This document shows, piece after piece, positions 2,432 through 30,696 of a stretch of 30,696 nucleotides of DNA. The stretch is from a virus. The notes beneath the pieces were generated by a model, which saw nothing but the letters and a program-made list of their open reading frames with translations, was not told where the DNA came from and ran no database searches. The number at the start of each line of letters is the position of its first letter. The first letter of the stretch is position 1. The stretch lies in the IMG/VR virus record IMGVR_UViG_3300036801_000020, positions 1 to 30,696 of that record; one strand, given 5' to 3'. A program made the position numbers and the translations under genes.

Positions 2432-2617
2432 CTATGCCGCGTCCCGGGACTTCTTGTAGGCCGCGATCGTGGTCGTGACGCCGAGCCGTCTGCGCGCCGA
2501 CTCCAGCTGACGCTCGATGGTGTGCGGCGACTTGCCGAGGGCTGCGGCGGCGCCCTTGACGGTCTCATGGAGTGCGATGGCGTCGAGGGCTTGGCGCTCG
2601 GCCGGCGTGACCTTCAT
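2432..2617 (-). CDS. Small HTH protein (LuxR-C-like), unknown role
   Basis: A 61-residue protein whose ATG overlaps the terL stop in ATGA. Nearly all of it is one helix-turn-helix unit: the stretch TVKGAAAALGKSPHTIERQL has the helix, turn and recognition-helix pattern of LuxR/GerE-type DNA-binding domains, followed by a basic LESARRRLGV segment. There is no sensory domain. Its position after TerL and before the portal suggests a packaging accessory or a late-gene regulator, but nothing in the sequence decides. It shares the TVKGAA motif and overall layout with the HTH protein at 9294-9512. Confidence 0.75.
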   Translation of the reverse strand: MKVTPAERQALDAIALHETVKGAAAALGKSPHTIERQLESARRRLGVTTTIAAYKKSRDAA

Positions 2618-4197
2618 GCCATCGCCACGACGAGCTTGGGCTTGGGCTTCTTCTGCGGCGCCATCGTCATCGCGGCCTCGAGCGCCAGAACGTCCGCGAT
2701 ACAGGCGTCAATCCGCCGCCGTTCGGTGCCCTCGCCCTTGGTCAACTTGTACATCGTCCGTCCGTCGCTGTCCGAGGCGTTGACGCGGACCTTTTCCTTG
2801 TGCGTGGCCTTTACGTGGGCGTTGGTGATTGGGTCATCGTCGTGGGTATGCGAGCCCTCGCGGAGCATCGTCATCCAACGGTCGATGGACTGAGAGAACC
2901 TGCGCAGTGAGTTGGTGTCGATCTTGAGCACGCGCGGATCGCCCTGCTTGTCGAGTCCGTACTTCTCTTCCCATTGCTCGATCTCAGTCCACCACTTGGG
3001 CGGGTCGCACATCATCCGCCCGACGTTGTAGTACGAGAATGCCCACTCCAGTTTGGCGTGAACCTCCAGGCGCGGGACGGTCCACTGCTCAACGCCGTCC
3101 GGTCGCTCCCATGCGTCGATCAGGAACGAATAGCCATCCGCAGTGCATCCACGCAGCACCGTCGCGTCACCACTGATTGAGCCGTCGAAGCCGAGCCCGA
3201 TATAGGTGCCCTTGGGCACTTCGACGTCCGCAGTGCGGCTGTCCCACAGCTTTGGGTCGATGGCCTTGGACTGACCCGCAGCGCGGATGTTGAAGAAGAA
3301 GCGCAGGGCGTCGCTCCATTCGGTGGCCGGATCGCGGACATCGGCGAGGATGCGCGGCAGATCCACCCAATATGAGTCGCCGTAGGCTTCAACCAGCGCA
3401 GAAAGCAGCCGCTCATCGCTCCATTCGGGATCAGGCTCAAACTCTGGACGCTTGGCATCCCACAGGATGCCTGAGAAGCCGCGATCGACGGCCTGACCGG
3501 ACTGCTCGGCCACTGAGCCCTCGCCGAGCATCGGCGCGTTGGTCGTCTCCATCGTGCGGCCGCCCATCTTGGCGACGTTGCGCCGGATCGTGGCCGCGAG
3601 CTTCACACCACCATTGCGTCTCAGATACAGGTGCGTCTCGTCCAGGAGTCCGTGGGTGACGGGCTGGCCCTCGCGTGACCCGGCAGAAGCCGTCACGGGT
3701 TCGAGACGTCCCGTGCGGTTCTTGAGATAGAGGCGCGTCTTGCCATCGTCAATCCGCAAGTCGATCGCTGCCTTGTGGTTATTGGCCGTCAGCATCTCGT
3801 AAAGCGCCGAGTAGGTGTTATCGGTCTGATCCTCGGAGACAGCCGCGATCTGCACCCAGGCGTTCGGCGCGCCCTTGGTGCCCCACGGCCGACCAATCGG
3901 TTCCTTGCCGCGCCAGCCGTCGAATAGGACCGGAGCGGAGTCATTGACCGAGCCGGCGCCGAGCTCGGCCAGACAGATCGCGCCATGTATTGGGCTCTTG
4001 CCCCAGCCTTTCGCACGCTCGCAGATACAGCGGCGATATGGGAACTTGCCGGCCTTGTCGACGGTGTACCACGCAAGAACGAGCTCAGCTTGCTCATCGG
4101 TCAGGATCAACGGCTCGAGCGGATTGCGCGGCGACGGAAGATAGGTGGTCATCCAGTCCAGGACGCCCCAGCCGAGAGTCGGGAGAGTCCACGCCAT
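2614..4197 (-). CDS. terL: Terminase large subunit
   Basis: A 527-residue DNA-packaging motor with ATPase and nuclease domains. The ATPase shows a Walker A-like RAKGWGKS (61-68) after a basic patch, and a Walker B LLDE (184-187) in HGLLDETHLY. The C-terminal RNase H-like nuclease has candidate metal ligands D338 in GFDGS, D398 in MMCDPP and D497 in RRIDACIADV. Length is normal. The start ATG shares one base with the TerS stop (TAATG), so the two subunits are translationally coupled. The nearby HNH and endonuclease VII-like genes fit a cos-type packaging module, but no cos site could be located. Confidence 0.93.
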   Translation of the reverse strand: MAWTLPTLGWGVLDWMTTYLPSPRNPLEPLILTDEQAELVLAWYTVDKAGKFPYRRCICERAKGWGKSPIHGAICLAELGAGSVNDSAPVLFDGWRGKEPIGRPWGTKGAPNAWVQIAAVSEDQTDNTYSALYEMLTANNHKAAIDLRIDDGKTRLYLKNRTGRLEPVTASAGSREGQPVTHGLLDETHLYLRRNGGVKLAATIRRNVAKMGGRTMETTNAPMLGEGSVAEQSGQAVDRGFSGILWDAKRPEFEPDPEWSDERLLSALVEAYGDSYWVDLPRILADVRDPATEWSDALRFFFNIRAAGQSKAIDPKLWDSRTADVEVPKGTYIGLGFDGSISGDATVLRGCTADGYSFLIDAWERPDGVEQWTVPRLEVHAKLEWAFSYYNVGRMMCDPPKWWTEIEQWEEKYGLDKQGDPRVLKIDTNSLRRFSQSIDRWMTMLREGSHTHDDDPITNAHVKATHKEKVRVNASDSDGRTMYKLTKGEGTERRRIDACIADVLALEAAMTMAPQKKPKPKLVVAMA

Positions 4198-9524: not shown

Positions 9525-9693
9525 GTGACACGATGCGTGAGTCATTCGCGGCATCGGGTGGCACGACATGGCAGTCAGTGGCACTGCTTTGTGAGGGAGA
9601 AGTGGGGTGGCCTATGGGGGTCGAACCCATAACCTTCGGATCCACAATCCGATGCTCCTGAGCACGGATAGTGCTGCTTTGTGACACGATGCG
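9525..9693. repeat. Short direct repeats flanking the att core (integrase arm-site candidates)
   Basis: GTGACACGATGCG occurs at 9525-9537 and 9681-9693. CTGCTTTGTGA occurs at 9584-9594 and 9674-9684. In addition GATAGTG (9667-9673) and CACTATC (9697-9703) form an inverted pair at the integrase stop. They lie on both sides of the tRNA-like core, as arm-binding sites for a tyrosine integrase and its excisionase do. Confidence 0.6.
9603..9652 (-). other. attP: attP core: 3' half of a tRNA-His gene
   Basis: On the minus strand this reads as a tRNA from the anticodon arm to the 3' end. The anticodon stem is TCGGA/TCCGA with loop TTGTGGA and anticodon GTG (His). The T arm is ATGGG/CCCAT with loop TTCGACC. 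The acceptor strand AGGCCAC is followed by C73, the discriminator special to tRNA-His, and an encoded CCA. Upstream, the D arm collapses to GCTCAGGAGC and no 5' acceptor strand is found, so it is not a functional tRNA gene. Integration would restore the host tRNA-His gene. The integrase gene ends 47 bases away. Confidence 0.85.
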
Positions 9694-9698
9694 GGACA

Positions 9699-10766
9699 CT
9701 ATCGACTTCCAGGCCGTCGATTTAGAAGCCTGACAGCCTCTTTCTGCGCCTCTGGCAGGACGTGGGCGTAGACCCTTGCTGTGAGTGCTGGGTTCTTGTG
9801 ACCAAGCTGCTCCGCAACGTGGCGCATCGGTACTCCCTTGGCGACCATGAGCGTTGCCGCGCCATGCCGGAGACCATGCGGTGTGAGCCTCGGCAGTCCT
9901 GCCCTGGTCAGCATCTTCGGGAAGGCGTGAGAGACCGTGGCCCCGCTGAGACGACCGCCTGACCGTGGCGCGAAGAACACCGGCTCATCTGGCCCACGCC
10001 TCTTCACCGAAGCTACGTGCTTCCGTAGCGCCTCCGCGGCATCGTCACTGATCGGGATGGCCCGAACTCGCGTCTTAGTCACCCTGACGACGACGAAAGA
10101 CGCGTCCAGGTGCAGATCGCCTTGGTCGAGTCCTAGAGCCTCGCCGAGGCGCATCCCTGAACCTAGCAACAGTTCCGTCAGCGGTCCGAGGAAGGTGCCT
10201 CGCGTGGCTTCGAGGATCTGGTCTGCCGTGGCGTCTGACATCGCTTTGATGGACGCCTGCTCGACGCGAGGGAGACTGACCCCAACGGCGACATTATCCG
10301 GTAGGACGCGATCACGTTGCCCTTGGGCGAGAGCAGATCGAAGCGTTGAATGGATGCGTCTGACGGTGCTCGGCGATAGCCGGGCGGCAGTTCGATCAGC
10401 AACGAGTCGGCGGACGTCGCTTGGTCGGAGTCGGACAACGGGAATACCTCCTAGCAGCGGCGAGATGTGGTTGTTGATGTGGCCGGCGTAGCTCACGCGC
10501 GTCGACTCTCGGACACTCGGACCGTGCGCAGCCAGCCAATCGGCGAGGTATTCATCGACGGTCTGGGTCGATATGTCAACGTCGCCGACGTAGGCGCGCC
10601 GTAGACGCTCCAGCTGATTGCGGGCATCGGCCTCTGAATGGGCGCGCACCTTCTTCCCAACTCGTCGGCCGTCACGAGCACCAAGGCTGATTCGGGCCAT
10701 CCAGGAGCCTGACGACTTGTCGAAGTAGACGGACCCTTCGCCGCGGTGACGCCGCCGCTTTGCCAC
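9699..10766 (-). CDS. int: Tyrosine integrase
   Basis: A 355-residue site-specific recombinase from a GTG at 10766, four bases after the excisionase stop. The N-terminus (RGEGSVYFDKSSGSWMARIS) is the AP2-like arm-binding domain, followed by a SAM-like core-binding domain (about 68-165). The catalytic domain has R206 (GSGMRLGEAL), K231, H297 and R300 (HGLRHGAATL), H323 (LGHKNP) and the nucleophile Y333 (ARVYAHVLPE), so all family residues are present. Integration is predicted at the host tRNA-His, since attP lies just downstream. It is the last gene of the long early chain. Confidence 0.95.
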   Translation of the reverse strand: MAKRRRHRGEGSVYFDKSSGSWMARISLGARDGRRVGKKVRAHSEADARNQLERLRRAYVGDVDISTQTVDEYLADWLAAHGPSVRESTRVSYAGHINNHISPLLGGIPVVRLRPSDVRRLVADRTAARLSPSTVRRIHSTLRSALAQGQRDRVLPDNVAVGVSLPRVEQASIKAMSDATADQILEATRGTFLGPLTELLLGSGMRLGEALGLDQGDLHLDASFVVVRVTKTRVRAIPISDDAAEALRKHVASVKRRGPDEPVFFAPRSGGRLSGATVSHAFPKMLTRAGLPRLTPHGLRHGAATLMVAKGVPMRHVAEQLGHKNPALTARVYAHVLPEAQKEAVRLLNRRPGSR

Positions 10767-12209: not shown

Positions 12210-12499
12210 GCCACGTTCCCGAGATAGTCGATGAGCACCGGGCGCCACGTCTTCCCATGATCGGTCTTCAATCGGTGATGAACGGAGCAAAGAGTTATCA
12301 GGTTGTCAGGCAGTGAGCTCGACTTCATGCCGATGCCGTGAGATGCCCTGACGTGATCGAGTTCCAGCGCGCCGAAGCACTCCCCGTCCATGCCCACCCG
12401 TGGCCCGACGCAGCCGTTATCCCGGCGCTTGACGATCTCCCGGATGTTGGAGGCTACGACGGTGCCGCGGCTGGGCTTCATGGTGGCGTAGCGCCTCAT
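12206..12499 (-). CDS. HNH endonuclease
   Basis: A 97-residue protein with an ATGA start overlap. The zinc/HNH core is intact: C30 and C41, LELDHV with D48-H49, DNLITLC with N66 and C71, and H74-H75 in SVHHRLKT. It differs from the terminase-linked HNH protein in sequence and location. It is translationally coupled to the DNA methyltransferase after it (GTGA), which raises the possibility of a minimal restriction-modification pair. A recombination or replication nuclease is equally possible. Confidence 0.85.
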   Translation of the reverse strand: MRRYATMKPSRGTVVASNIREIVKRRDNGCVGPRVGMDGECFGALELDHVRASHGIGMKSSSLPDNLITLCSVHHRLKTDHGKTWRPVLIDYLGNVA

Positions 12500-12792
12500 T
12501 TGAGCAGCGCCAACGTGTCGTCCAGGTTGTCAGGCCAGACGCCGTACCAGTCCTCGCCGATCGCCTCTGCCCATGCATGCTGATCTGGCCGCAGTTTCCC
12601 GGTTCGGCTCTTGAGTTCGAGGAACAGGACGCGGTTAGCGCGGGCCAACACCACGTCGGGAAACCCGGAATGACCCTGCATCTGCGCCAAGTCGGAGCGC
12701 CGGTAATGGACCCAGCGCCAACCGAGGTACGTGGCAGCTTCGGTGATGGCCGTCAAAAGCTCGTCCTCGGTCATCGCGCGCGCGAGGCTCAT
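12496..12792 (-). CDS. VRR-NUC nuclease
   Basis: A 98-residue single-domain nuclease of the PD-(D/E)XK fold, VRR-NUC family. The signature is G43-F-P-D46, then the strand FLELKS with E59 and K61, and Q71 in RPDQHAW. Phage members cut branched or Holliday-type DNA and replace RuvC-like resolvases. The ATG at 12792 gives an ATGA overlap; the longer upstream frame to 12939 is antisense-like. It sits in the replication/recombination module near HNH and methyltransferase genes. Confidence 0.9.
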   Translation of the reverse strand: MSLARAMTEDELLTAITEAATYLGWRWVHYRRSDLAQMQGHSGFPDVVLARANRVLFLELKSRTGKLRPDQHAWAEAIGEDWYGVWPDNLDDTLALLK

Positions 12793-13004
12793 TCCCCGTC
12801 CTCTCCGCGCTCTGAATGTGGCCCAGTGAAACCGACTAGATGGATGCCGCCCGTTCGATTGCGAAGAGCCAGAACCGCGATGTTGTAGCGGCGCTTGGCT
12901 CGGGCAACGGTTATCAGCGCGGCTCCAAGATGCTCCCAAACGTCGTCAAACTCATCCTCGGTCATGGCCGGGACAGCCTCTCGAACTTTCGCGAAGTCGA
13001 TCAT
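12789..13004 (-). CDS. Small protein, unknown
   Basis: A 71-residue soluble protein starting at an ATG that shares one base with the stop before it (TGATG). It has an acidic helix (MTEDEFDDVWEHLGAALIT) followed by a basic helix (VARAKRRYNIAVLALRNR) and a disordered acidic tail (HSERGEDGE). No domain is recognised. It is a translationally coupled accessory in the early chain. Confidence 0.65.
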   Translation of the reverse strand: MIDFAKVREAVPAMTEDEFDDVWEHLGAALITVARAKRRYNIAVLALRNRTGGIHLVGFTGPHSERGEDGE

Positions 13005-13910: not shown

Positions 13911-14191
13911 CGGGGAGTCCTTGCTTCGAGAGCGCGGGACAAGTCGAACGCGAAGTGCTCGATTTGTGCGTCGGTCAGGTCTGGAATGTAGGCGTCGTTA
14001 GCCAGAAGGGCCTTGACCATTCGTTCCGCCTCAACCTCTTGCGTTACTGGTTGGTCGGAGTGGGATAGACCACCATGCTCGGTCAGATATCGCTGCGCCT
14101 CTTTGACGCAGCACGGCGACCGACGCTTATGCCGCGCTACCGGATCAGGCTGAACAGCGGTCACTCGGTGGCTCTTGTCAGGTGTGGTCAT
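13907..14191 (-). CDS. Small early protein, unknown
   Basis: A 94-residue protein whose ATG shares a base with the stop of the replication-like gene (TGATG). It carries AVQPDPV near the start and LSHSDQPVTQE mid-way, shared with the protein at 13004-13540, then a helical acidic C-terminal half (EAERMVKALLANDAYIPDLT and onward). It has a CC pair in RSPCCVKEA. No known domain. Confidence 0.6.
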   Translation of the reverse strand: MTTPDKSHRVTAVQPDPVARHKRRSPCCVKEAQRYLTEHGGLSHSDQPVTQEVEAERMVKALLANDAYIPDLTDAQIEHFAFDLSRALEARTPR

Positions 14192-14940
14192 CAGTTCTCC
14201 AGGTGCTGGCGTAGCGCGGCGGTCTCTTTGCGGGTTCGCTCGACGCGACGGTCGAAGGCGGCCTTGGCTTCGTCCTCACGATCGGCCTCACTTAGAGCCC
14301 TGAGGTTGGGCTTGGGGTTCAGGTTGTCCGTGGCGCCGAATACGAAGCCCTTGATGTCGCCATCGACGACTCCTGCACGGCTGAGCTTGTCGAACATGCG
14401 CTCGACGGCCGGCGCGCCATGGCGCTCGACGGCGGTGATCAGCTGGCGGTGGTAGCCATTGCCGGGAGCGACGTAGCAGCCGTGTTTGGCGAGCCATTGC
14501 AGCAGCGGAAACTCCGGCTCGTCGTCGTCCCCCTTAACAACCCCCGACGAAGAAGAGACATCTACAGGGACAGGGACAGGGACAGCGCTACGCGCCCGCG
14601 AGGTCCTTTTTTTGTCTTCTGTTTGTCCTGTATTTGTCTCACCGTTGTCCTCGCGTTGTCTCTCTTTTGCAGCCTTCCATTGGTACTGTTGCCAATCATG
14701 GACAGCCAGCGAACCGTCCTCGTGACGTTCGAGCAGCCGAGTCGACAGGTAGTGCGCCAGGTACTTCGCGTGCCGGTGAACAACCTCCCGGAAGTGGGCC
14801 TCAGAGGCGAACTGTCCAGGCTTCGATTGCCGCTTGGCGCGGGTCAGGATGACGATCCAGCTGTACCTCGCGGCGTCGGACGGCAGCGCGGCAAACTTGG
14901 GGTGCTCAGGTAGGTCGCAGTCGAGCGCAATCCAGGTCAC
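14191..14940 (-). CDS. Replication-organiser-like protein
   Basis: 249 residues from a GTG at 14940 in a GTGA overlap; the earlier start at 14955 is less consistent with its neighbours. The N-terminal half (WIALDCDLPEHPKFAALP, ARYSWIVILTRAK, FREVVHRHAKYLAHYLSTRL, then LAVHDWQQYQWK) is the winged-helix layout of phage replisome organisers and DnaD/O-type initiators. A low-complexity PVPVPV linker, encoded by three ACAGGG hexamers (14564-14585), joins a C-terminal helical domain. It would mark the origin and recruit the host helicase. This is the best replication-initiation candidate in the window; family assignment rests on overall pattern only. Confidence 0.6.
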   Translation of the reverse strand: MTWIALDCDLPEHPKFAALPSDAARYSWIVILTRAKRQSKPGQFASEAHFREVVHRHAKYLAHYLSTRLLERHEDGSLAVHDWQQYQWKAAKERQREDNGETNTGQTEDKKRTSRARSAVPVPVPVDVSSSSGVVKGDDDEPEFPLLQWLAKHGCYVAPGNGYHRQLITAVERHGAPAVERMFDKLSRAGVVDGDIKGFVFGATDNLNPKPNLRALSEADREDEAKAAFDRRVERTRKETAALRQHLEN

Positions 14941-15233
14941 CGCGGGTCTCCCCAAAGCGTCACAGGACGCTGTTCCATGCGATCCGCAGTGCCATCCAAT
15001 GCCGATGCCGTCTGCAGCTGCGTCATGGCCCGGTTACGTAGTCGCAGGGCGATGGTGCGCACCTTCTGAGGTTGTGACTCGAGCCAGTAGCCGTCCGAGT
15101 TAGACGCGATCGGGACGCCTTCGAGCCTTGCCGCATGGATAAGAAGCTCGACTTCTCGCGGTGAGATGCCCGCGAGCTCGGCGATCTGCTTCTTGGTGCG
15201 CGGCTCGCCGGTCAGGAACTCGCTGATCCTCAT
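14937..15233 (-). CDS. Small winged-helix DNA-binding protein (copy 2)
   Basis: A 98-residue protein starting in an ATGA overlap with the ATPase gene. KKQIAELAGISPREVELLIH is a helix-turn-helix followed by a wing-like strand (GVPIASNSDGYWL) and a basic C-terminal half (LRLRNRAMTQL). It resembles the protein at 16945-17256 in order and motif (TK/NKRQLAE.., S-R-V-E-L, GVPV.A), so the two flank the ATPase as paralogues. It may load or regulate the ATPase on DNA. Confidence 0.75.
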   Translation of the reverse strand: MRISEFLTGEPRTKKQIAELAGISPREVELLIHAARLEGVPIASNSDGYWLESQPQKVRTIALRLRNRAMTQLQTASALDGTADRMEQRPVTLWGDPR

Positions 15234-16948
15234 CGCTCACCACCAATGAACAGCGCCTCACCTGCTCTGATTGAGCCGGACGATTCCTCTAGCAGCCGGT
15301 TCACGCGCAGCCGCGAGAGATAACCGCGGAAGGTGCCCGATGTGGGCTCGATCCCCACTTGCTCGCCAAGATCGGCGCGGCTGATCCATTCGGGATAGAT
15401 ACTCACCAGGACTGCCAGCATCCGGCGTGCTCCCGCGTCCAGTTTGCGATTCCACATCTCGACTAGTTCGGATACGTCCGGCGCCCCTGAGCCGAGATCG
15501 GACCCCATCATCTCGACGCCCTGAGCCGAGAGGGCAACGGTGTTCTTGTCCGGCTCTTCGATCAGTTGCGCGACGCGCAAGCGGGATAGGTATCCGCGAA
15601 ACGTGCCGCTCGTCCATGCAACGTCGGCGAGCGTGCCGAGTTGCGATCTCAACAGTGGCGTGGGGTGCAGGCGTGCGAGCGCAACAAGCATCCGCCGCGC
15701 ACCAGCGTCAAGGCGCAGATCGTCAGTGGGTGGCGCCGCTACGGTCAGGCGAGGTCGGGGCTCAGGATGCACCACGGCGGGCGGAAACGACCCCTGAGGC
15801 ACCGGGATGGCGTGAACGCGGCTGATGGCCTCAGTTATGGACTCGCCGATCCCCTGGAGTACAGAGCCGACGCCGACGAGTTGCCTGACCGTCTCAGCCA
15901 GTTTCTCCACCTGGCCGTTGAGCACGGGGACTTCGACGACCTTTTCGACGACACGTTCCACCTGTTCGGTCGGACGCTGGGCAACCTGTCGCTCCAGTTC
16001 GACGATGCGCTTGCGCAGTTCCCTCGGATCGTTGGCTTTCTGCTGTTGTTTGGCCGCGGCTATGCGCGCGTCGAGCGCGTCGAGATCGACCTTCGCAAAC
16101 GTAGTCGGCGTAATCGCCACTTCACCCGTTCCGGGCGTCCGGCTGCTGTCGAAGGTCCGGCGCGGCCGAACCCGGATGCGCGCGAGTGTGCGAAGGAAGG
16201 ACGGTGACCACAGCCACGCCTCACCCTGTTCGAGCGATGCGAGAGTCGATAGAACGCCGTCCCTCTCTTCTGCGGTGCCATTGCCTTTGATCCACTCGTC
16301 TATGGCTGCGCGGTCCTGTGGACCAGTCGTTTGCATGACGATCAGAATTTCCGTCTGGGTTAGGACATTCTTGTTGAGCACCGCTGCGCGCTGAGTTATC
16401 AGTAGACAGCCGAGACCCTTGATCCGGCCGCGCCGGACAATGCTTTCGAGCGCCCCCAACGACTTGAGTTGGTCGCCCTTCTCGCGCGGCTGCTGCGGCG
16501 CGAACACGTCGGCTTCGTCGACGACGACGAAGAGAGGGCCGCTATCGGGCTTCTTGCCGCGGTACAGGCGATCAAGGAACGTGGCCGCGAACGTGTGTTC
16601 AGCAGCCTTCGAAGTGAACGCTGAGAGGTCGAAGATGTAAGCGCCCGGATGCTCAAGCACGACTTCCGCGAACGTCGTGCCTGCGCTTGGGTCAAGGTCC
16701 ATATCGCCGTGGTCGCCACCGAAGATAACGACGGGCAGGCCCGGCTTCTCACCGTCGACGGATGAGCGCAGTCCCCACCACGCGCCAGTCGGATCGAGGA
16801 CGACGACAGGAACCTGAGCATCGATGGCCTCTTCGACGATCACGGATGCCGCATACGTCTTACCCGCACCACGGCGGGCGAGGATGGCGATTGACTGAGT
16901 AACTGTGTCAATCGGCAGCTCAATGCCGCGGCCGATGCGAAGGGTCAC
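15230..16948 (-). CDS. HerA/DUF87-like ATPase with tandem winged-helix domains
   Basis: A 572-residue protein starting in an ATGA overlap. The N-terminal ATPase has Walker A-like ARRGAGKT (24-31), Walker B VVVDEADVF (141-149), and the family stretch ITQRAAVLNKNVLTQTEILI (184-203), as in HerA/FtsK-clade motors. A coiled-coil-like region (about 285-355) leads to two copies of a winged-helix unit, 413-480 and 503-570, each starting LDAGARRML and containing SGTFRGYLSRLRV. HerA-type motors translocate on double-stranded DNA. In a phage replication block with no DnaB helicase it could remodel forks, process ends or counter host defences. Its partner nuclease, if any, is not obvious; the VRR-NUC gene is a few genes away. 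Confidence 0.85.
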   Translation of the reverse strand: MTLRIGRGIELPIDTVTQSIAILARRGAGKTYAASVIVEEAIDAQVPVVVLDPTGAWWGLRSSVDGEKPGLPVVIFGGDHGDMDLDPSAGTTFAEVVLEHPGAYIFDLSAFTSKAAEHTFAATFLDRLYRGKKPDSGPLFVVVDEADVFAPQQPREKGDQLKSLGALESIVRRGRIKGLGCLLITQRAAVLNKNVLTQTEILIVMQTTGPQDRAAIDEWIKGNGTAEERDGVLSTLASLEQGEAWLWSPSFLRTLARIRVRPRRTFDSSRTPGTGEVAITPTTFAKVDLDALDARIAAAKQQQKANDPRELRKRIVELERQVAQRPTEQVERVVEKVVEVPVLNGQVEKLAETVRQLVGVGSVLQGIGESITEAISRVHAIPVPQGSFPPAVVHPEPRPRLTVAAPPTDDLRLDAGARRMLVALARLHPTPLLRSQLGTLADVAWTSGTFRGYLSRLRVAQLIEEPDKNTVALSAQGVEMMGSDLGSGAPDVSELVEMWNRKLDAGARRMLAVLVSIYPEWISRADLGEQVGIEPTSGTFRGYLSRLRVNRLLEESSGSIRAGEALFIGGER

Positions 16949-17256
16949 GAAGCGCGCCCCTTCCGCCGCGACTCGCGGTCACGCTTCGCCCATTCCTCGA
17001 TCAGCCGCTCGCGCTCGTCCAGCGAGGCGCGTTCATAGCGGCGCTCGAACTCCAAGCGTTCACGACGGACGCTTTCCGATTCGCTCACGCCGTCAGGAAT
17101 TGGTTCGCAGCCCGTCGCTGTAGTCGCAGCGCACACAGGTACGCCTCGTCTGCTGTCTACTTCAAGCTCAACGACTCGCGTCGAGACGCCCATGTCCTCG
17201 GCAAGCTGGCGCTTGTTCTTCGGGGTGGCGGTGAGGGCTTCGAGCAGGGTTTTCAC
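16945..17256 (-). CDS. Small winged-helix DNA-binding protein (copy 1)
   Basis: 103 residues from a GTG in a GTGA overlap. The start, KTLLEALTATPKNKRQLAED followed by MGVSTRVVELEV, is a winged-helix HTH; the C-terminal half is a long basic/acidic helix (VRRERLEFERRYERASLDER and onward). It is a paralogue of 14937-15233, and both flank the HerA-like ATPase. Likely binds DNA; role unknown. Confidence 0.75.
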   Translation of the reverse strand: MKTLLEALTATPKNKRQLAEDMGVSTRVVELEVDSRRGVPVCAATTATGCEPIPDGVSESESVRRERLEFERRYERASLDERERLIEEWAKRDRESRRKGRAS

Positions 17257-17828
17257 GCAGCCTGCTCCAGCGGCAGCGAGCCCCACTGATCGGCCATCGC
17301 GTCGGCGATGCCCTGCAGTGTCCGGCTGCGTTCCTTCCAGCGATCAGGACCGGGCGCCATCCGGTGGACTCGGGCTGTCCGGCCATCAACGATGTTGGTC
17401 GGCGTGAGCTTCGGAAGTCCTTTGAGCCAGAGGCACGTCGCCTTGACTTCACCGTGGCCGAACTGCCAAGGCTGGATGATCTGGTCCGGCTTGCGTATCC
17501 GGCTGCTGATGATCGAGACGGGGTTTTCCAGCGCGATGCGCGGGATACTCGGCACGTCAATCAGGCAGCGCACGAACGCCAGCGCCCATTCCTGTTCGTC
17601 GCGCTTTTCCTTGAACCAGCGCGCGCCGCTCACAGCGAGATGCGTACAGGGCGGATGGACGATCATCAGATCCCATCCACCGCCCCACGCCACGGGCATT
17701 ACGTCACCCTGAATGTGCGGGCCCGGTCGCTCACTTGGCAACAGGTCGCAGCTGATCGCCTCATGCCCGCGCGCAATGAACGCATCGCGGACGATGCCGG
17801 AGAACTCGCAGGCCACTAGGACTCTCAC
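17253..17828 (-). CDS. Short C5-cytosine methyltransferase-like protein
   Basis: 191 residues, starting at an ATG in an ATGA overlap. It has the AdoMet-domain opening MRVLVACEFSGIVRDAF, the catalytic PPC motif (59-61, VHPPCTHL) and an ENP motif (101-103) in place of ENV, and a GHGEVKATCLWLKGL segment. Full C5 methyltransferases are about 300 residues or longer and carry a target-recognition domain; this one lacks most of that. It may act with a partner, methylate weakly or have another role. With the class-beta enzyme, the phage carries two methyltransferase-type genes. Confidence 0.75.
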   Translation of the reverse strand: MRVLVACEFSGIVRDAFIARGHEAISCDLLPSERPGPHIQGDVMPVAWGGGWDLMIVHPPCTHLAVSGARWFKEKRDEQEWALAFVRCLIDVPSIPRIALENPVSIISSRIRKPDQIIQPWQFGHGEVKATCLWLKGLPKLTPTNIVDGRTARVHRMAPGPDRWKERSRTLQGIADAMADQWGSLPLEQAA

Positions 17829-18001
17829 TCCACCCGCCTCAACGCAGGAACAGGGAAGTTCCCGAAAGACGCCAGCATCCGGTCGACGTAGAACTGGTGG
17901 TCAGGCTTGCGCTGATGCTCCTGGACGGCCTTGGCGATGGCCTTGGGCTCGTCCTCTGCTTCGATTACGCCTAAACAGGCGCAGCGGCGGCGCTCTTTCA
18001 T
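17825..18001 (-). CDS. Small protein, unknown
   Basis: A 58-residue protein between two ATGA overlaps. MKERRRCACLG opens with basic residues and two Cys, followed by a helix (EPKAIAKAVQEHQRKP) and a short end NFPVPALRRVE. No domain is recognised. Accepted because of perfect coupling on both sides. Confidence 0.6.
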   Translation of the reverse strand: MKERRRCACLGVIEAEDEPKAIAKAVQEHQRKPDHQFYVDRMLASFGNFPVPALRRVE

Positions 18002-18234
18002 GCTTGCTCCCAAACCGTTAGGCGCTGTGGTGCCTTCTTGGCTCCGAGCGCGAACCAAGCTGTCCAGCCGTCGATGTAGATGCGCTCCACGCGGACGTCC
18101 AGGTAGCGATAGACGGTGCGGATGCTCACGCCGTAGCGGGCTGCCAGTCCTTCGACGGTGAGCCCCTTGCGCTTGTCGTCCTGGAGCGATTGGATCTGCC
18201 ACGGCTCCAATCCGGCCTGCTGCTTCTCCTTCAC
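17998..18234 (-). CDS. HTH protein (Hin/recombinase-type HTH), unknown role
   Basis: About 78 residues from a GTG at 18234 in a GTGA overlap, with GGAAG eight bases upstream; an ATG at 18267 would give 89 residues overlapping the zinc peptide. LTVEGLAARYGVSIRTVYRY is a clear helix-turn-helix, followed by a basic/aromatic segment RIYIDGWTAWFALGAKKAPQ. The layout resembles small phage regulators. Binding sites are unknown. Confidence 0.7.
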   Translation of the reverse strand: MKEKQQAGLEPWQIQSLQDDKRKGLTVEGLAARYGVSIRTVYRYLDVRVERIYIDGWTAWFALGAKKAPQRLTVWEQA

Positions 18235-18335
18235 CGGAGCTGCTTCCGGTGCCAGCCACGTCGGCATAGACGGCAGATGCCGCGCTGGTTCTCGGCCGGT
18301 ATCTTGCACACGCACTCCGGGCACAGACACCTCAC
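18231..18335 (-). CDS. 34-residue zinc-ribbon peptide
   Basis: Starts at a GTG in a GTGA overlap with the RecT-like gene and ends in a GTGA overlap with the HTH gene. Its four main Cys sit as C-x2-C and C-x2-C (LCPECVC... and CRLCRRGWH), a minimal zinc ribbon with a basic end. Larger open frames over it look like antisense. Tight coupling on both sides supports it as real. Confidence 0.55.
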   Translation of the reverse strand: MRCLCPECVCKIPAENQRGICRLCRRGWHRKQLR

Positions 18336-19108
18336 TCGAGCCAGCTTTCGCTCTTGGTCCGGTGAGGTCGTTGGCCCGGTTGTGCCTCGGGGTCGTGTCC
18401 ACTCTCCCGCCGGCACTGATCCCCGGATAACGGAGAGACGCTCTCGCACTGGCTCATACCCACTTTTGGGTCTGTGTGGCTGCGGCCCGCCGTGTCCTCG
18501 TCCTCGTGTACCTCGACGCCGCCCAATGGCACGAACTGGGCTTCTACGACGTTGGAAGGTGCCGACTCGGGTATGGGCGCGTCAGCGACAGGAGCCGCTG
18601 CGTGCTCGTCGGCGTGAGCGCTCGGGGCTTCCACGTCCCAGCGCTCGTCTTGGGTTGGCGCGGAGATGTTGAAGGCGCGGCGAAGCGCCATCGACTCAGC
18701 AACCTTGATCGCCATCTCTGGTGCAAACTTCTGGTTGCCACCCTTCGCCGGATATCTGCCCGGATAGGTGAACGGGTGGCTCATATCGGTGCGGTAGGCC
18801 GATGCCTCGCACTCCCAGTAGTCACCGACGATCACCGGCTTGGTGACGGTCAGACCATCGAAGCGTCCTGAGCGGTGCGCGATCCACAGCAGCGCGTCAC
18901 GAGTGACATACGGCTTGCCGTCGATCAGCACGAGATGCTTGAGCATCAGGTCCAGGTCGTAACGCTTGGCGATGGCTATCGCGAGCTCGCGCTGCTGCGG
19001 GTTGGCCGTGTCCAAGCCGACTGCCTTCAGAATGGCCTGCTTGCGCAGCTTCTCGGCTTCCTTGTTGTCGTCAACGACGGTGAGCGTCGATTCCGTTTGC
19101 GCTGTCAT
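18332..19108 (-). CDS. RecT-like single-strand annealing protein
   Basis: 258 residues, preceded by a GA-rich Shine-Dalgarno (GAGGGAAGAG) close to the ATG. The region MLKHLVLIDGKPYVTRDALL, then HRSGRFDGL and the downstream YWECEASAYRTDMSHPFTYP, then MAIKVAESMALRRAFNIS, resembles RecT/Redbeta-type annealing proteins from actinobacterial phages. The C-terminal third is acidic and disordered and ends with a C-x7-C...H-x10-H tail. Such proteins pair single strands during recombination and concatemer formation. The usual exonuclease partner is not adjacent; the VRR-NUC nuclease is downstream. Family assignment is by pattern. Confidence 0.6.
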   Translation of the reverse strand: MTAQTESTLTVVDDNKEAEKLRKQAILKAVGLDTANPQQRELAIAIAKRYDLDLMLKHLVLIDGKPYVTRDALLWIAHRSGRFDGLTVTKPVIVGDYWECEASAYRTDMSHPFTYPGRYPAKGGNQKFAPEMAIKVAESMALRRAFNISAPTQDERWDVEAPSAHADEHAAAPVADAPIPESAPSNVVEAQFVPLGGVEVHEDEDTAGRSHTDPKVGMSQCESVSPLSGDQCRRESGHDPEAQPGQRPHRTKSESWLE

Positions 19109-20111: not shown

Positions 20112-23100
20112 CTAAATGATCTTCTGATAGCGAAGCACGGACCCGGCATAGACGATGGCGCTGGTGCCGATCGTCGCGGTGTTCTCTGACCAATAGAGAC
20201 CACAGGTGCCGCCTGAACCGTCGCTCCACATGAGGAACTTCGCATAGGCTGGCTGCTTAGCGCCGGTGCCACCAGCCGTTACTGTCCCACCGCCCGTAAC
20301 GGTCAGGACGGACGTCCCCGATGTATTGGGCGCTATAGCCCAGCCCGATCCTGCGGCTACTGGCGCTCCACCACCAGCCGCGCCACCGACGCTGAACTTG
20401 AAGTCTGGCGTGGTGCCGACGTTGTACAGCAGAAACAACTCCACGATGTACAGCGAGTTCGCCGACATCGTGAAGAAGAGTTCGTCATCGGCCTGCTGTG
20501 AACCACTGTTCGTGACGGTCTCGTCTGAGCTCTTGGTGACGGTCGTCCAGTCGGAGACCGCACCACCGCCGCCTGCCGTCGCCCACTTGAGTCCGGTCGT
20601 CTGTGACGAGTCCGCGACGAGCACCTGATTGTTTGAGCCAGCGCCGAGGATCGCCGCCGTGTCGTTGGCCGTGCCTGCGATGAGGTCGCCCTTCGCCGCC
20701 CACGTCGTGTCATGCTGGATATGCGCCGCCTCGTGGGCGTGGGCGTGATCGTCGAGCGCGAGGGGATGGCCTGATGTTCCGGTAGCTCCTGACGTGCCTA
20801 CGGCTGCTGGAGTCGCGGCGGTCTCGGCGAGCCACTTCAAGCCTGTCGTTTGCGCCGAGTCAGCGGTGAGCACTGATTTGTTCGCGCCGACAGTCAGCTT
20901 CGCTGCGGTGTTGGCTCCCGTGCCACCCGCAAGGTCGCCCTTCGCATCCCATATCGCGTCCGTGGCGACTGATCCGCCACCGCCGCCAGCTGCGCCGAGC
21001 TCCTGCAGCGCCGCTTCAACGTCAGTGCCGGTGAAGTAGGAGCCGGAGTCCACGATGGACACTGCGCTGGCGTCGTGGGCATCAGTAGGATCGGTGAGGT
21101 GGTCGGTCAGGTCCGTGGCCGATGCGGGGACAACCTCGGAGCCGGGGTCGGTGATGTCATCCTGACCGACGCGCATTAGCCAGCCCTGCGTCCCCGACAG
21201 GGTAAGTCCCTCGAACTCCGTGCCCGCCGCTGCTCCCGCGAGGAAGATGCAGCCATCGGCGTGGTGGTGCAGCGCCTGGGCCTGTGCGTTGTCGTCGGAG
21301 TCGCCGCCGAAACGCTGGATGATCTTCGTCGAGCCGTCGACCTTGGACATCGTGATGAGGCACGCTTCCGATGGGTCCGTTGACCAATCCGCGCCGCCGA
21401 TGTAGCCGCACACCCGTACAAAGTCGTCGGCGATGACCTGGTTGCCGTTGCCCGTCGTGATGAGGCTGGGGAAGAGGTAGGAGTGGCGGGCGTTGAGGTC
21501 GACCGTCCAGAGCACCGTCCCGCCCCGGTCGTACTTGGTCAGGACGTTATCTAGCAACTGATACAGGTTGTAAGCGTCGTCAACGGCCCAATCATCAGTC
21601 GGGAAGAAGTCGGTGATCGTCACCGTGTCATCTAGGTTGGCGTCACGGTCGAAGCGCAGGATCGTGTCGGTGCTCTGCTGAACCATCGCGAACTCGCCCG
21701 ATGCTGAGCGGCGCATGGAGTCGCCCGGGTCGGTCAGGCTGGTCTCGGTGACGAGTGAGCCGTCAAGCGTCTCGCGCACTTGGATGGTGTCAGCACTACC
21801 GCCACCACCGCCGAAGCTCGCGTTGAGACCGATGGTGTAGCAGCGCAGGTGAACGCCGCCGCCCGTATACGAGCCACCGCCATAGTCGCCGGTCAGGTCT
21901 GCGACACCGAAATACTTATGGCCTGAGCCGTCAGTGACGCCTGTCGAGCGGTTGGTCATGCCGCTCGGCGTGAACGTGTCGACGTTGCCCGCCGCGGTAG
22001 ATAAGACGCCAACCACGCTATCGCCACTCGATTCCGCGCCGATCGTCACCGGCTGCGTCGTGGCGCTGTGGAACGTCGTGCCGGCGATGATCGAGGAAGT
22101 GTCGACGTTGCGGTAGACGACGACACAGAGCGTGCTAATTGAGCCGGTCCAGCCTGAGAACGGCAGCACCGTGTCGCCCATCTGGAGAACGCGCGTGACG
22201 AGAGCCATACCCAAGCCCGCTGGCTCGTCATGGCGGACCAGCGTCCAGCCAGACGGCGCCGCCGTGATGCCGCCGAATGTCGCATCCCGCGCGATACCGA
22301 GCGCCACGTCGCCAACGGCCCAGCCTGCTGGCAGCGTGCAGTTTCCGCCGGTGCTCTCGTTGATGCCGACGTACTCGACGGACACGCCGCCCGTCACCCA
22401 GAAGCGGCGCGCGTCCTGCGTCTGCGCCGCCAGCGCGGTGATGCCGGATGTGATGTCCCAGCGTTGGACGCCGGTGTCTCTGCGGTAGGCCTTGTCGCCG
22501 AGACACAGCGGCACATAGGTTCCAGGCTGATGGGTGACGTAGGGCACACCGCCCGACGCGCTGACTTCCCAGACCTTTGTCTGGAGGTCGACCCGGAACT
22601 TCGCGAGCGTCGAGCCGTCGTGGAGATATATCGCATCGTCCGGGCCGGACTCCAGCGATAGCTCGCTATCCAGATCGGTGAGCACCACCGCACGGCCGCA
22701 GCCGCCGCCGTCGCCATTGCCATCGCTGCCGCCAGTGTTCGAGAGGTCGATCTGCGGCCGGCACGTCAGGCGATCGGCGAACTGGACGGTGAACTCCGCA
22801 GTGCCGCCCAGGTCGTTGGGCTGCATGTAGCGGATGCTGATCTGGCTGATTACGAAGTCGTCGTCGATGGAGTGCGTCGAGTTGACGATGTGCACCGTCT
22901 GGCCGGAGATCAGGCCCGCTGTCCAGGTAGTCAGCGTGCCGGAGACCTGCGCGGTGCCGATGCGCTCTAGCTCCGCGTCGGCGATGGCCTGGATCGTGTC
23001 CAGGTCCTTGACGCCGCTCGCGTTGACGGAGCGCTGCCTGCCGCCGGATGGCGTGCTCGTCGGGCGCCATGCCGCCACGCCGTCGCCCTGCGCCCAAACG

Positions 23101-29764: not shown

Positions 29765-30696
29765 TTAGGAGGCTGCGTCAGCGGTAACGCTGGTGTAGTC
29801 GGAGACGCTGTAAGCGTTGGCGTCCTGGACGTTGGAGTCGGCCCGCGCCCATGCGTGGTAAGCGACCTGTCGCGACTTGATCGCGGTGTACGGATCGACG
29901 TCGATCTGCACGCCACGGACGTAGCGGATGATGAAGCCGCGCTTCATGTCACCGAATGCCACGTTTGTGCCGGCTGCCTGATCGAGGTAGACCGGATACC
30001 CGAGGAGTGAGCCGGAAGGCCCGGCCGCTCCGCTCGAGTTTGCGGCGGGGATGAACAACGGGCGACCGTTGCCGTCGACTGAGCCGAGCACCTTGGCGAG
30101 GTTGGTGTCCGACATCAGCCACGAAACATCGCCGTCGATGTTGTCGTCGCGGTATGCCTGATCGACCTGGAAGAAGTGCTCTTGCACCGCCGCGAAGAAG
30201 GTCGTCGCGGTCATCACGTCAGCGGACTTGGCGAACAAGCCCAGCGGCTCATTCGATCCGGTTCCGTTGGCGAACTCTGCGGCCATCTTGCGACCGAGAC
30301 GTTCAGCGAGACGATCGCTGATGAAGTTCTCTAGCGGGATGGCCGAGTCCTGGAGCAGTTCCTTGGAGACGAGCAGGGGCAGATTGCCCGTGCCTGTCGC
30401 GTCGAAGCTGTACGCACCGAGCGTGACCGACCCGAAGACCAGATCGGCGCCGCCGCCGCTGGCGGCTGAGCCTTCCGTCGCGATGACTGCGCTGTTTGCG
30501 GTGTCATCCACTGACGGCCAGCGGAGTGGCTGCCCGTCTCCGGTGGTGATCGAATCGGCGAGCTTCTGCACGCCACCAAACGCCTTCATCCGAACCACGA
30601 TGCGGTTCAGGAAGCCATCCGGGACGCTGTAGCCGCCCTGCGTGCCGTCGCCGGCGATCGCCTGGGCGAACTGCGCCATGTTTTCCCTGTCGCCGG
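29765..30696 (-). CDS. Prohead protease fused to major capsid protein, C-terminal part
   Basis: In the window this is the end of the same 595-residue gene that begins at 983 and crosses the contig junction. This piece has the HK97-gp5 capsid fold: GGYSVPDGFLNRIVVRMKAF (N-arm and the opening of the fold), then AVIATEGSAASGGGADLVFG, the A/P-domain part with LLVSKELLQDSAIPLENFIS, and the family stretch FANGTGSNEPLGLF. It ends SVSDYTSVTADAAS. Bases 30570-30696 duplicate 1-127. The ATG at 30679 is internal to the fusion, and could at most act as a secondary start that would give a capsid fragment. Confidence 0.9.
   Translation of the reverse strand, partial: GDRENMAQFAQAIAGDGTQGGYSVPDGFLNRIVVRMKAFGGVQKLADSITTGDGQPLRWPSVDDTANSAVIATEGSAASGGGADLVFGSVTLGAYSFDATGTGNLPLLVSKELLQDSAIPLENFISDRLAERLGRKMAAEFANGTGSNEPLGLFAKSADVMTATTFFAAVQEHFFQVDQAYRDDNIDGDVSWLMSDTNLAKVLGSVDGNGRPLFIPAANSSGAAGPSGSLLGYPVYLDQAAGTNVAFGDMKRGFIIRYVRGVQIDVDPYTAIKSRQVAYHAWARADSNVQDANAYSVSDYTSVTADAAS
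30570..30696. repeat. Direct terminal repeat, right copy (contig overlap)
   Basis: Identical to bases 1-127. The non-redundant genome is therefore 30,569 bp and can be closed into a circle within the capsid gene without disturbing its frame. Confidence 0.95.

Follow-up and report, generated by a model that had tools for sequence, protein, structure and literature searches.

The window analysed here (the whole 30,696-nucleotide stretch of IMG/VR virus record IMGVR_UViG_3300036801_000020) carries at 14937-17256, on the minus strand, a gene for an ATPase flanked by genes for two small winged helix-turn-helix (wHTH) proteins, with 4-bp overlaps between wHTH-1 and the ATPase and between the ATPase and wHTH-2. 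This arrangement had been recognized in an earlier note made from the sequence alone, in which the three genes were regarded as one linked system. The analysis centred on the ATPase, a HerA-type motor with two C-terminal winged helices. The main point, overlooked in the earlier note, is that the recognition helices of these two domains match within each protein and differ between proteins. The ATPase gene and its parts are:

15230..16948, minus strand: HerA/FtsK-superfamily ATPase with twin C-terminal winged helices, 572 amino acids (Pfam DUF87, AlphaFold2 model, PDB fold search)
16139..16948, minus strand: motor domain, residues 1-270 (Walker A 27-31, Walker B 141-147, TQR 185-187)
15812..16084, minus strand: long helices, probably a coiled coil, residues 289-379 (AlphaFold2 secondary structure)
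15518..15712, minus strand: wHTH copy 1, residues 413-477 (alpha 3 at 448-459; repeat hidden Markov model, independent E 6.7e-22)
15251..15442, minus strand: wHTH copy 2, residues 503-566 (alpha 3 at 538-549; repeat hidden Markov model, independent E 4.8e-23)

The ATPase belongs to the HerA/FtsK superfamily of pumping ATPases, with a Walker A motif (GAGKT at residue 27), an acidic Walker B motif (VVVDEAD at residue 141) and a TQR motif (within ITQR at residue 184). Residues G29, K30, E145 and R187 were unvarying across 87 aligned ATPase sequences, and the AlphaFold2 model, built on an 87-sequence alignment, had a mean pLDDT of 92. The match to Pfam DUF87, the HerA central domain, exceeded its cut-off (E 7.8e-10), and a PDB fold search with the model returned HerA (E 1e-13, PDB 9x1m) and the packaging ATPase B204 (TMt up to 0.78). 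The HerA-type motor proposed earlier is thus borne out by the Walker motifs, ITQR and the DUF87 match. Canonical HerA was nevertheless rejected as an identity: there is no HAS barrel before the motor, which by sequence and model begins at residue 1 with no N-terminal region ahead of it; NurA (PF09376) was found in 0 of 50 ATPase-bearing viral records while being detected in seven control genomes; and the best NCBIfam HerA score was 59.9 bits against a cut-off of 970 (NF040819, E 1.6e-16). The motor domain and fold are like those of the HerA of HerA-NurA end resection, whereas the phage ATPase is without HAS barrel or NurA and has an added C-terminal reader module. An end-processing role, also raised in the earlier note, is unsupported as a NurA partnership. 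FtsK and TraB were likewise rejected as the family, the motor being DUF87 with no membrane-anchoring N-terminus; no Pfam match to FtsK_SpoIIIE was obtained in the ATPase at E <= 0.1.

The best PHROG match of the ATPase, phrog_2666 (E 3e-18), is labelled terminase large subunit and the fold also resembles STIV2 B204 and archaeal virus ATPases, both of which speak for a packaging motor. This is very improbable, however, as the same genome has an ordinary terminase (phrog_9) and portal (phrog_12, E 7.6e-54), the ATPase gene lies in the early region, and the family occurs on plasmids. Terminase identity was rejected, the label being contradicted by the separate terminase large subunit and portal genes. 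The phrog_2666 label will mislabel this family in automatic annotation.

The C-terminal part of the ATPase is repeated, with LDAGARRML at residues 413 and 503 and TSGTFRGYLSRLRV at residues 446 and 536. Both copies showed the alpha-beta pattern of a wHTH in AlphaFold2 models, confirming the doubled winged helix of the earlier note (residues 413-477 and 503-566). Alpha 3, the recognition-helix position of a wHTH, corresponded in each copy to exactly the repeated SGTFRGYLSRLRV stretch, and in copy 2 consisted of the same 14 residues as in copy 1. The C-terminal 166 residues, containing the tandem wHTH, were modelled with a pTM of 0.88, and the single domains resembled MarR regulators.

Relatives of the ATPase are encoded by at least 510 viral contigs (tblastn E <= 1e-3; 80 loci, ranked by similarity, were kept) and by 63 plasmid records, among them ones from Sphingobium, mycobacteria such as Mycolicibacterium vanbaalenii (NZ_CP126902), other Actinomycetota and haloarchaea, the haloarchaeal matches spanning the motor only. 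They also occur in genomes of Nitrospira, Planctomycetota, Rokuibacteriota, Granulicella, sphingomonads and others. The loci from phages, plasmids, viral contigs and genomes were collected by means of motor patterns, and the form of the C-terminus is therefore an independent observation, with the reservation that the 80 viral-contig loci had been selected in order of similarity. Exactly two C-terminal wHTH repeats were present in 109 of the 113 proteins longer than 480 amino acids, with the copies approximately 87 residues apart and finishing approximately 4 residues short of the C-terminus. The sole single-copy protein (L016) is cut by a contig end. Both repeats were found in 21 of 25 members of the genome set.

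Comparison of the two copies of each protein showed that identity was concentrated in the recognition helix. The nine-residue core of alpha 3 was 88.7 % identical between copies 1 and 2 of one protein, compared with 34.8 % when copies were paired randomly between proteins (maximum 40.8 % in 2000 shuffles). Outside alpha 3, the two winged helices of one protein were 33.1 % identical, and those paired between proteins 22.7 %. The two helices agreed at eight or nine of the nine positions in 79 of 106 non-redundant proteins, and these 106 proteins contained 89 different helices. Where a helix residue of copy 1 was altered between two proteins, the same change was present in copy 2 in 88-100 % of cases, while paired changes outside the helix were seen in 22-38 %; this comparison was made on pairs of related proteins, which are not independent events. 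Recent gene conversion was ruled out as the source of the twin helices by codon differences, with codons shared at 50.9 % of the matching helix residues (codon usage predicts 46.9 %) and only two of nine core codons being identical between copies in the window ATPase. The near-expected codon match indicates that the helices are held alike by selection at the protein level and not by recent copying of DNA.

Matching helices could also arise if the winged helices make protein-protein contacts, with each other or with two copies of a partner that would guide the motor in place of a DNA sequence. Symmetric interfaces can likewise force residues to match, the tandem wHTH model has a fixed arrangement (pTM as above) and word searches found no DNA site. 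However, the matched residues fall exactly on alpha 3, the DNA-reading helix, the single domains are MarR-like, and no partner gene is conserved, leaving protein contact as an improbable explanation.

The reader module and the motor evolve separately. Among 26 pairs with motors at least 80 % identical (mean 84 %), the winged helices outside the helix were only 45 % identical, and helix identity fell below 50 % in 58 % of the pairs. With lower motor identity, down to 40 %, wHTH identity remained flat at 30-34 %. For example, the motors of L102 and L086 are approximately 88 % identical, with a sharp fall in identity past residue 330 and unrelated helices in both copies, including a length difference of two residues. 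L010 and L042 likewise have motors related to that of the window ATPase and a different helix. Judged from these alignments, the address module looks like one that is exchanged or is changing very fast relative to the motor.

No gene accompanies the ATPase consistently. Of 109 genes immediately upstream, 92 were singletons and no family recurred in more than 4; of 110 immediately downstream, 103 were singletons and no family recurred in more than 3. Wider neighbourhoods contained small numbers of ParB-like, DUF5131, integrase, methyltransferase, HNH and phage metallopeptidase genes. This lack of conserved neighbours indicates that the ATPase functions with no constant partner gene. A single complete genome was covered in full, the other loci being viral-contig stretches with genes called by a simple script. 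In two phages, genes of note lie upstream of the pump: an SbcC-like gene was present at L010:4855-7080 (phrog_77, E 1e-66) and a gene annotated as 'chromosome segregation protein' at L002:17476-18870. These recall archaeal HerA-Rad50 operons and are not family-wide.

The two flanking genes of the window are as follows.

16945..17256, minus strand: small wHTH protein 1, 103 amino acids from a GTG at 17256, or 113 amino acids if started from 17286
14937..15233, minus strand: small wHTH protein 2, a BirA-type wHTH of 98 amino acids (TIGR00122, E 7.3e-5, under its cut-off; phrog_2113, E 1.4e-4)

Protein 1 had no family match among Pfam and PHROG profiles. The two proteins are paralogues, as had been proposed, with 39 % identity over 54 amino acids (E 2e-9, single comparison). 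The three coupled genes are therefore present with the overlaps described, but a linked wHTH-ATPase-wHTH system is not: none of 117 ATPase-bearing loci had a homologue of either small protein, immediate neighbours were mostly singletons, and a viral-contig scan with the 98-amino-acid wHTH-2 gave no relative. The earlier note had held that absence of linkage elsewhere would count, in part, against such a system, and the three-gene arrangement proved not to be linked elsewhere. Weak matches were confined to two phage records. A weak relative in a Bacillus phage (43 % over 37 amino acids, E 3e-3) lies a few genes past a replication initiator and helicase loader, a context that fits DNA-binding proteins of a replication module. 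The small wHTH proteins probably belong to the replication module as DNA binders in their own right.

The earlier note also considered an anti-defence unit, of which no sign was seen. A related possibility is a pump serving defence or counter-defence, in which a HerA-type capture device would use its fast-changing readers to recognize the DNA of competing elements in place of its own. The nearest defence profiles of the ATPase were all HerA, plus mad8 of MADS; HerA/FtsK capture systems with fast-evolving wHTH proteins have been described (PMC12839542); and an arms race would suit rapid diversification. However, no effector nuclease or defence partner is conserved alongside, with NurA absent as above and no defence effectors among the frequent neighbour families of the ATPase loci, and in this small phage the gene is part of the early replication operon. 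A role in defence is accordingly unlikely. The known HerA anti-phage systems, with SIR2, DUF4297 or NurA partners, were rejected as an identity for lack of a conserved adjacent effector.

The reading we favour, and regard as somewhat on the probable side, is that the ATPase is a stand-alone, sequence-addressed double-stranded DNA (dsDNA) translocase loaded onto its own element by paired identical half-sites. The HerA-type motor would form a hexameric ring on dsDNA with no need of a fixed partner gene, and the two winged helices of each subunit, bearing the same helix, would read two copies of one short DNA word. Loading would take place at a site in the genome of the element itself, after which the ring would travel along this DNA, in parallel with FtsK, which starts from KOPS, and with TraB, which starts from TRS repeats. 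FtsK gamma is the C-terminal winged helix of a hexameric dsDNA pump and reads the 8-bp KOPS for loading and orientation (PMC5357621), while TraB of Streptomyces conjugative plasmids is hexameric at the clt locus and reads 8-bp TRS repeats (PMC4170104). FtsK and the phage ATPase are alike in having a RecA-type motor followed by a C-terminal winged helix. They differ in that FtsK is membrane-anchored and each of its subunits bears a single gamma domain, whereas the phage ATPase has two matched winged helices, a DUF87 motor and no region before it. The likeness to TraB lies in a single plasmid protein with an element-specific address, but TraB is an FtsK homologue for conjugation and the phage ATPase has a HerA-type motor and doubled wHTH and is phage-borne. 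A known counterpart in build is the 'hera helicase' of an environmental podovirus (MW202482), a relative that shares the motor and likewise ends in two matched winged helices. It differs in having no flanking small wHTH genes and an upstream gene for a 'chromosome segregation protein' that appears Rad50-like by eye. No description of a matched-helix pump was found in the open-access papers searched, which leave out most subscription journals.

In such a translocase the DNA word would differ from element to element, the recognition module being exchanged or diversifying far faster than the motor, as would be expected if each phage or plasmid acts on its own DNA and not on that of a co-resident relative. 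The matched helices strongly suggest an element-varying DNA address borne by a motor that is widespread in viruses and on plasmids. Further, phages and plasmids might share a large class of self-addressing pumps, as yet undescribed, in which the paired helix is swapped or diversified as a unit and each element moves its own DNA only; we consider this broader proposal possible, though short of probable. An element-identity system of the incompatibility type would then be built into a translocase. If the motor does carry such an address, a code from helix to DNA word could be read from sequence, mobile elements would have a new way of telling their own DNA from that of others, and a likely function would be provided for hundreds of genes at present called simply 'DUF87' or, in error, 'terminase'.

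The weakest part of this proposal concerns the process in which the ATPase takes part, which was approached through the genome context. An exact 127-bp terminal repeat (1-127 and 30570-30696) shows that the window holds a phage genome that is complete and circularly permuted, 30,569 bp in length. All assignable genes are on the minus strand, namely those for portal, terminase, endonuclease VII, tail and capsid proteins and integrase. The order in the early region is RecT-like, HTH, phrog_757, wHTH-1, ATPase, wHTH-2 and replication initiator. The genes not listed above, with the terminase gene from elsewhere in the genome, are:

18332..19108, minus strand: RecT-like annealing protein (PF03837, E 1.3e-4, 22 bits, slightly below the cut-off of 24)
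17998-18402: HTH gene of the early region
17253..17828, minus strand: methyltransferase-like protein (phrog_757 'DNA methyltransferase', E 2.1e-67), overlapping wHTH-1 by 4 bp
14191..14955, minus strand: replication initiator / replisome organiser (phrog_3926, E 2.5e-11), overlapping wHTH-2
2614..4197, minus strand: terminase large subunit (phrog_9, E 9.2e-58)

From the phrog_757 gene through the initiator every gene overlaps its successor, indicating that the three-gene block forms the central part of a larger coupled operon and no unit by itself. The setting in a replication region suggested in the earlier note is upheld by this operon. The same note had found no DnaB helicase, primase or polymerase, and indeed neither DnaB_C nor DNA_pol_A was matched in the complete genome, an absence given meaning by the terminal repeat; the initiator at 14191-14955, which also matched Phage_rep_org_N at E 0.006 (under its cut-off), had been overlooked next door. 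In this phage the ATPase may act during replication, separation or handling of fresh phage DNA. Action on freshly replicated DNA appears the likeliest from the position of the gene in an early operon beside the initiator, and L010 and L012, in which initiator-like genes (read by eye) follow shortly after the ATPase, favour the handling or separation of new element DNA. We propose replication, separation or handling of newly replicated DNA tentatively, as a plausible guess.

The complete genome without a DnaB or polymerase match, together with the adjoining initiator, could alternatively point to a replicative helicase or helicase loader standing in for DnaB. However, replisome-organiser initiators normally recruit the host helicase, HerA motors pump dsDNA, and members of the family also reside on large plasmids and have ParB, integrases and DEAD helicases as neighbours. 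A replicative role of this kind is quite unlikely.

Several observations count against a sequence-addressed translocase. Adjacency to an initiator was seen in few phages only and not throughout the family, and the two alpha 3 helices may contact each other. In addition, the cognate DNA site was not found, as clusters of repeated words (7- and 8-mers, and 6-mers repeated three times within 70 bp), compared among loci with like helices, showed no relation to helix type other than that due to base composition. These words were mostly GC-rich and common to all loci, and the intergenic gaps of the window showed no obvious paired site.

Regularly spaced repeats were nevertheless present. Five GACAA direct repeats with an exact 11-bp period lie at 14612..14660 on the minus strand, inside the initiator gene and out of codon phase (two overlapping four-copy matches, with none expected from 100 shuffles). 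The array is a candidate for origin iterons. By analogy with phage origins located in initiator genes, the initiator would be the first candidate to bind the array, with the ATPase or a small wHTH protein also possible. Across the loci, 6-mer arrays of three or more copies numbered 15 at periods of 10 and 11 bp combined, against 0-4 at any other single period that is not a multiple of three. The words of the 10- and 11-bp arrays did not visibly track helix type, and these arrays are a lead only, for which the initiator is an equally good binder. At L082:7942-7980, 50 bp before the ATPase gene, are three tandem palindromic units TTACTAGTAA(A) with an 11-bp period, a candidate operator or loading site. 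Four TGGTGC repeats with a 10-bp period were observed at L003:10810-10855, from 22 bp past the ATPase gene on a plasmid of Mycolicibacterium vanbaalenii.

Elsewhere in the window, a tRNA-Gly call at 22921-23015 lies inside a structural gene and is probably spurious. The early region also encodes a protein with a VRR-NUC nuclease domain at 12496-12939 (PF08774, E 2.6e-5). An Rfam tRNA match (34 bits) at 9614-9663 on the minus strand adjoins the integrase gene at 9699-10766 and may represent a tRNA-derived attachment site.

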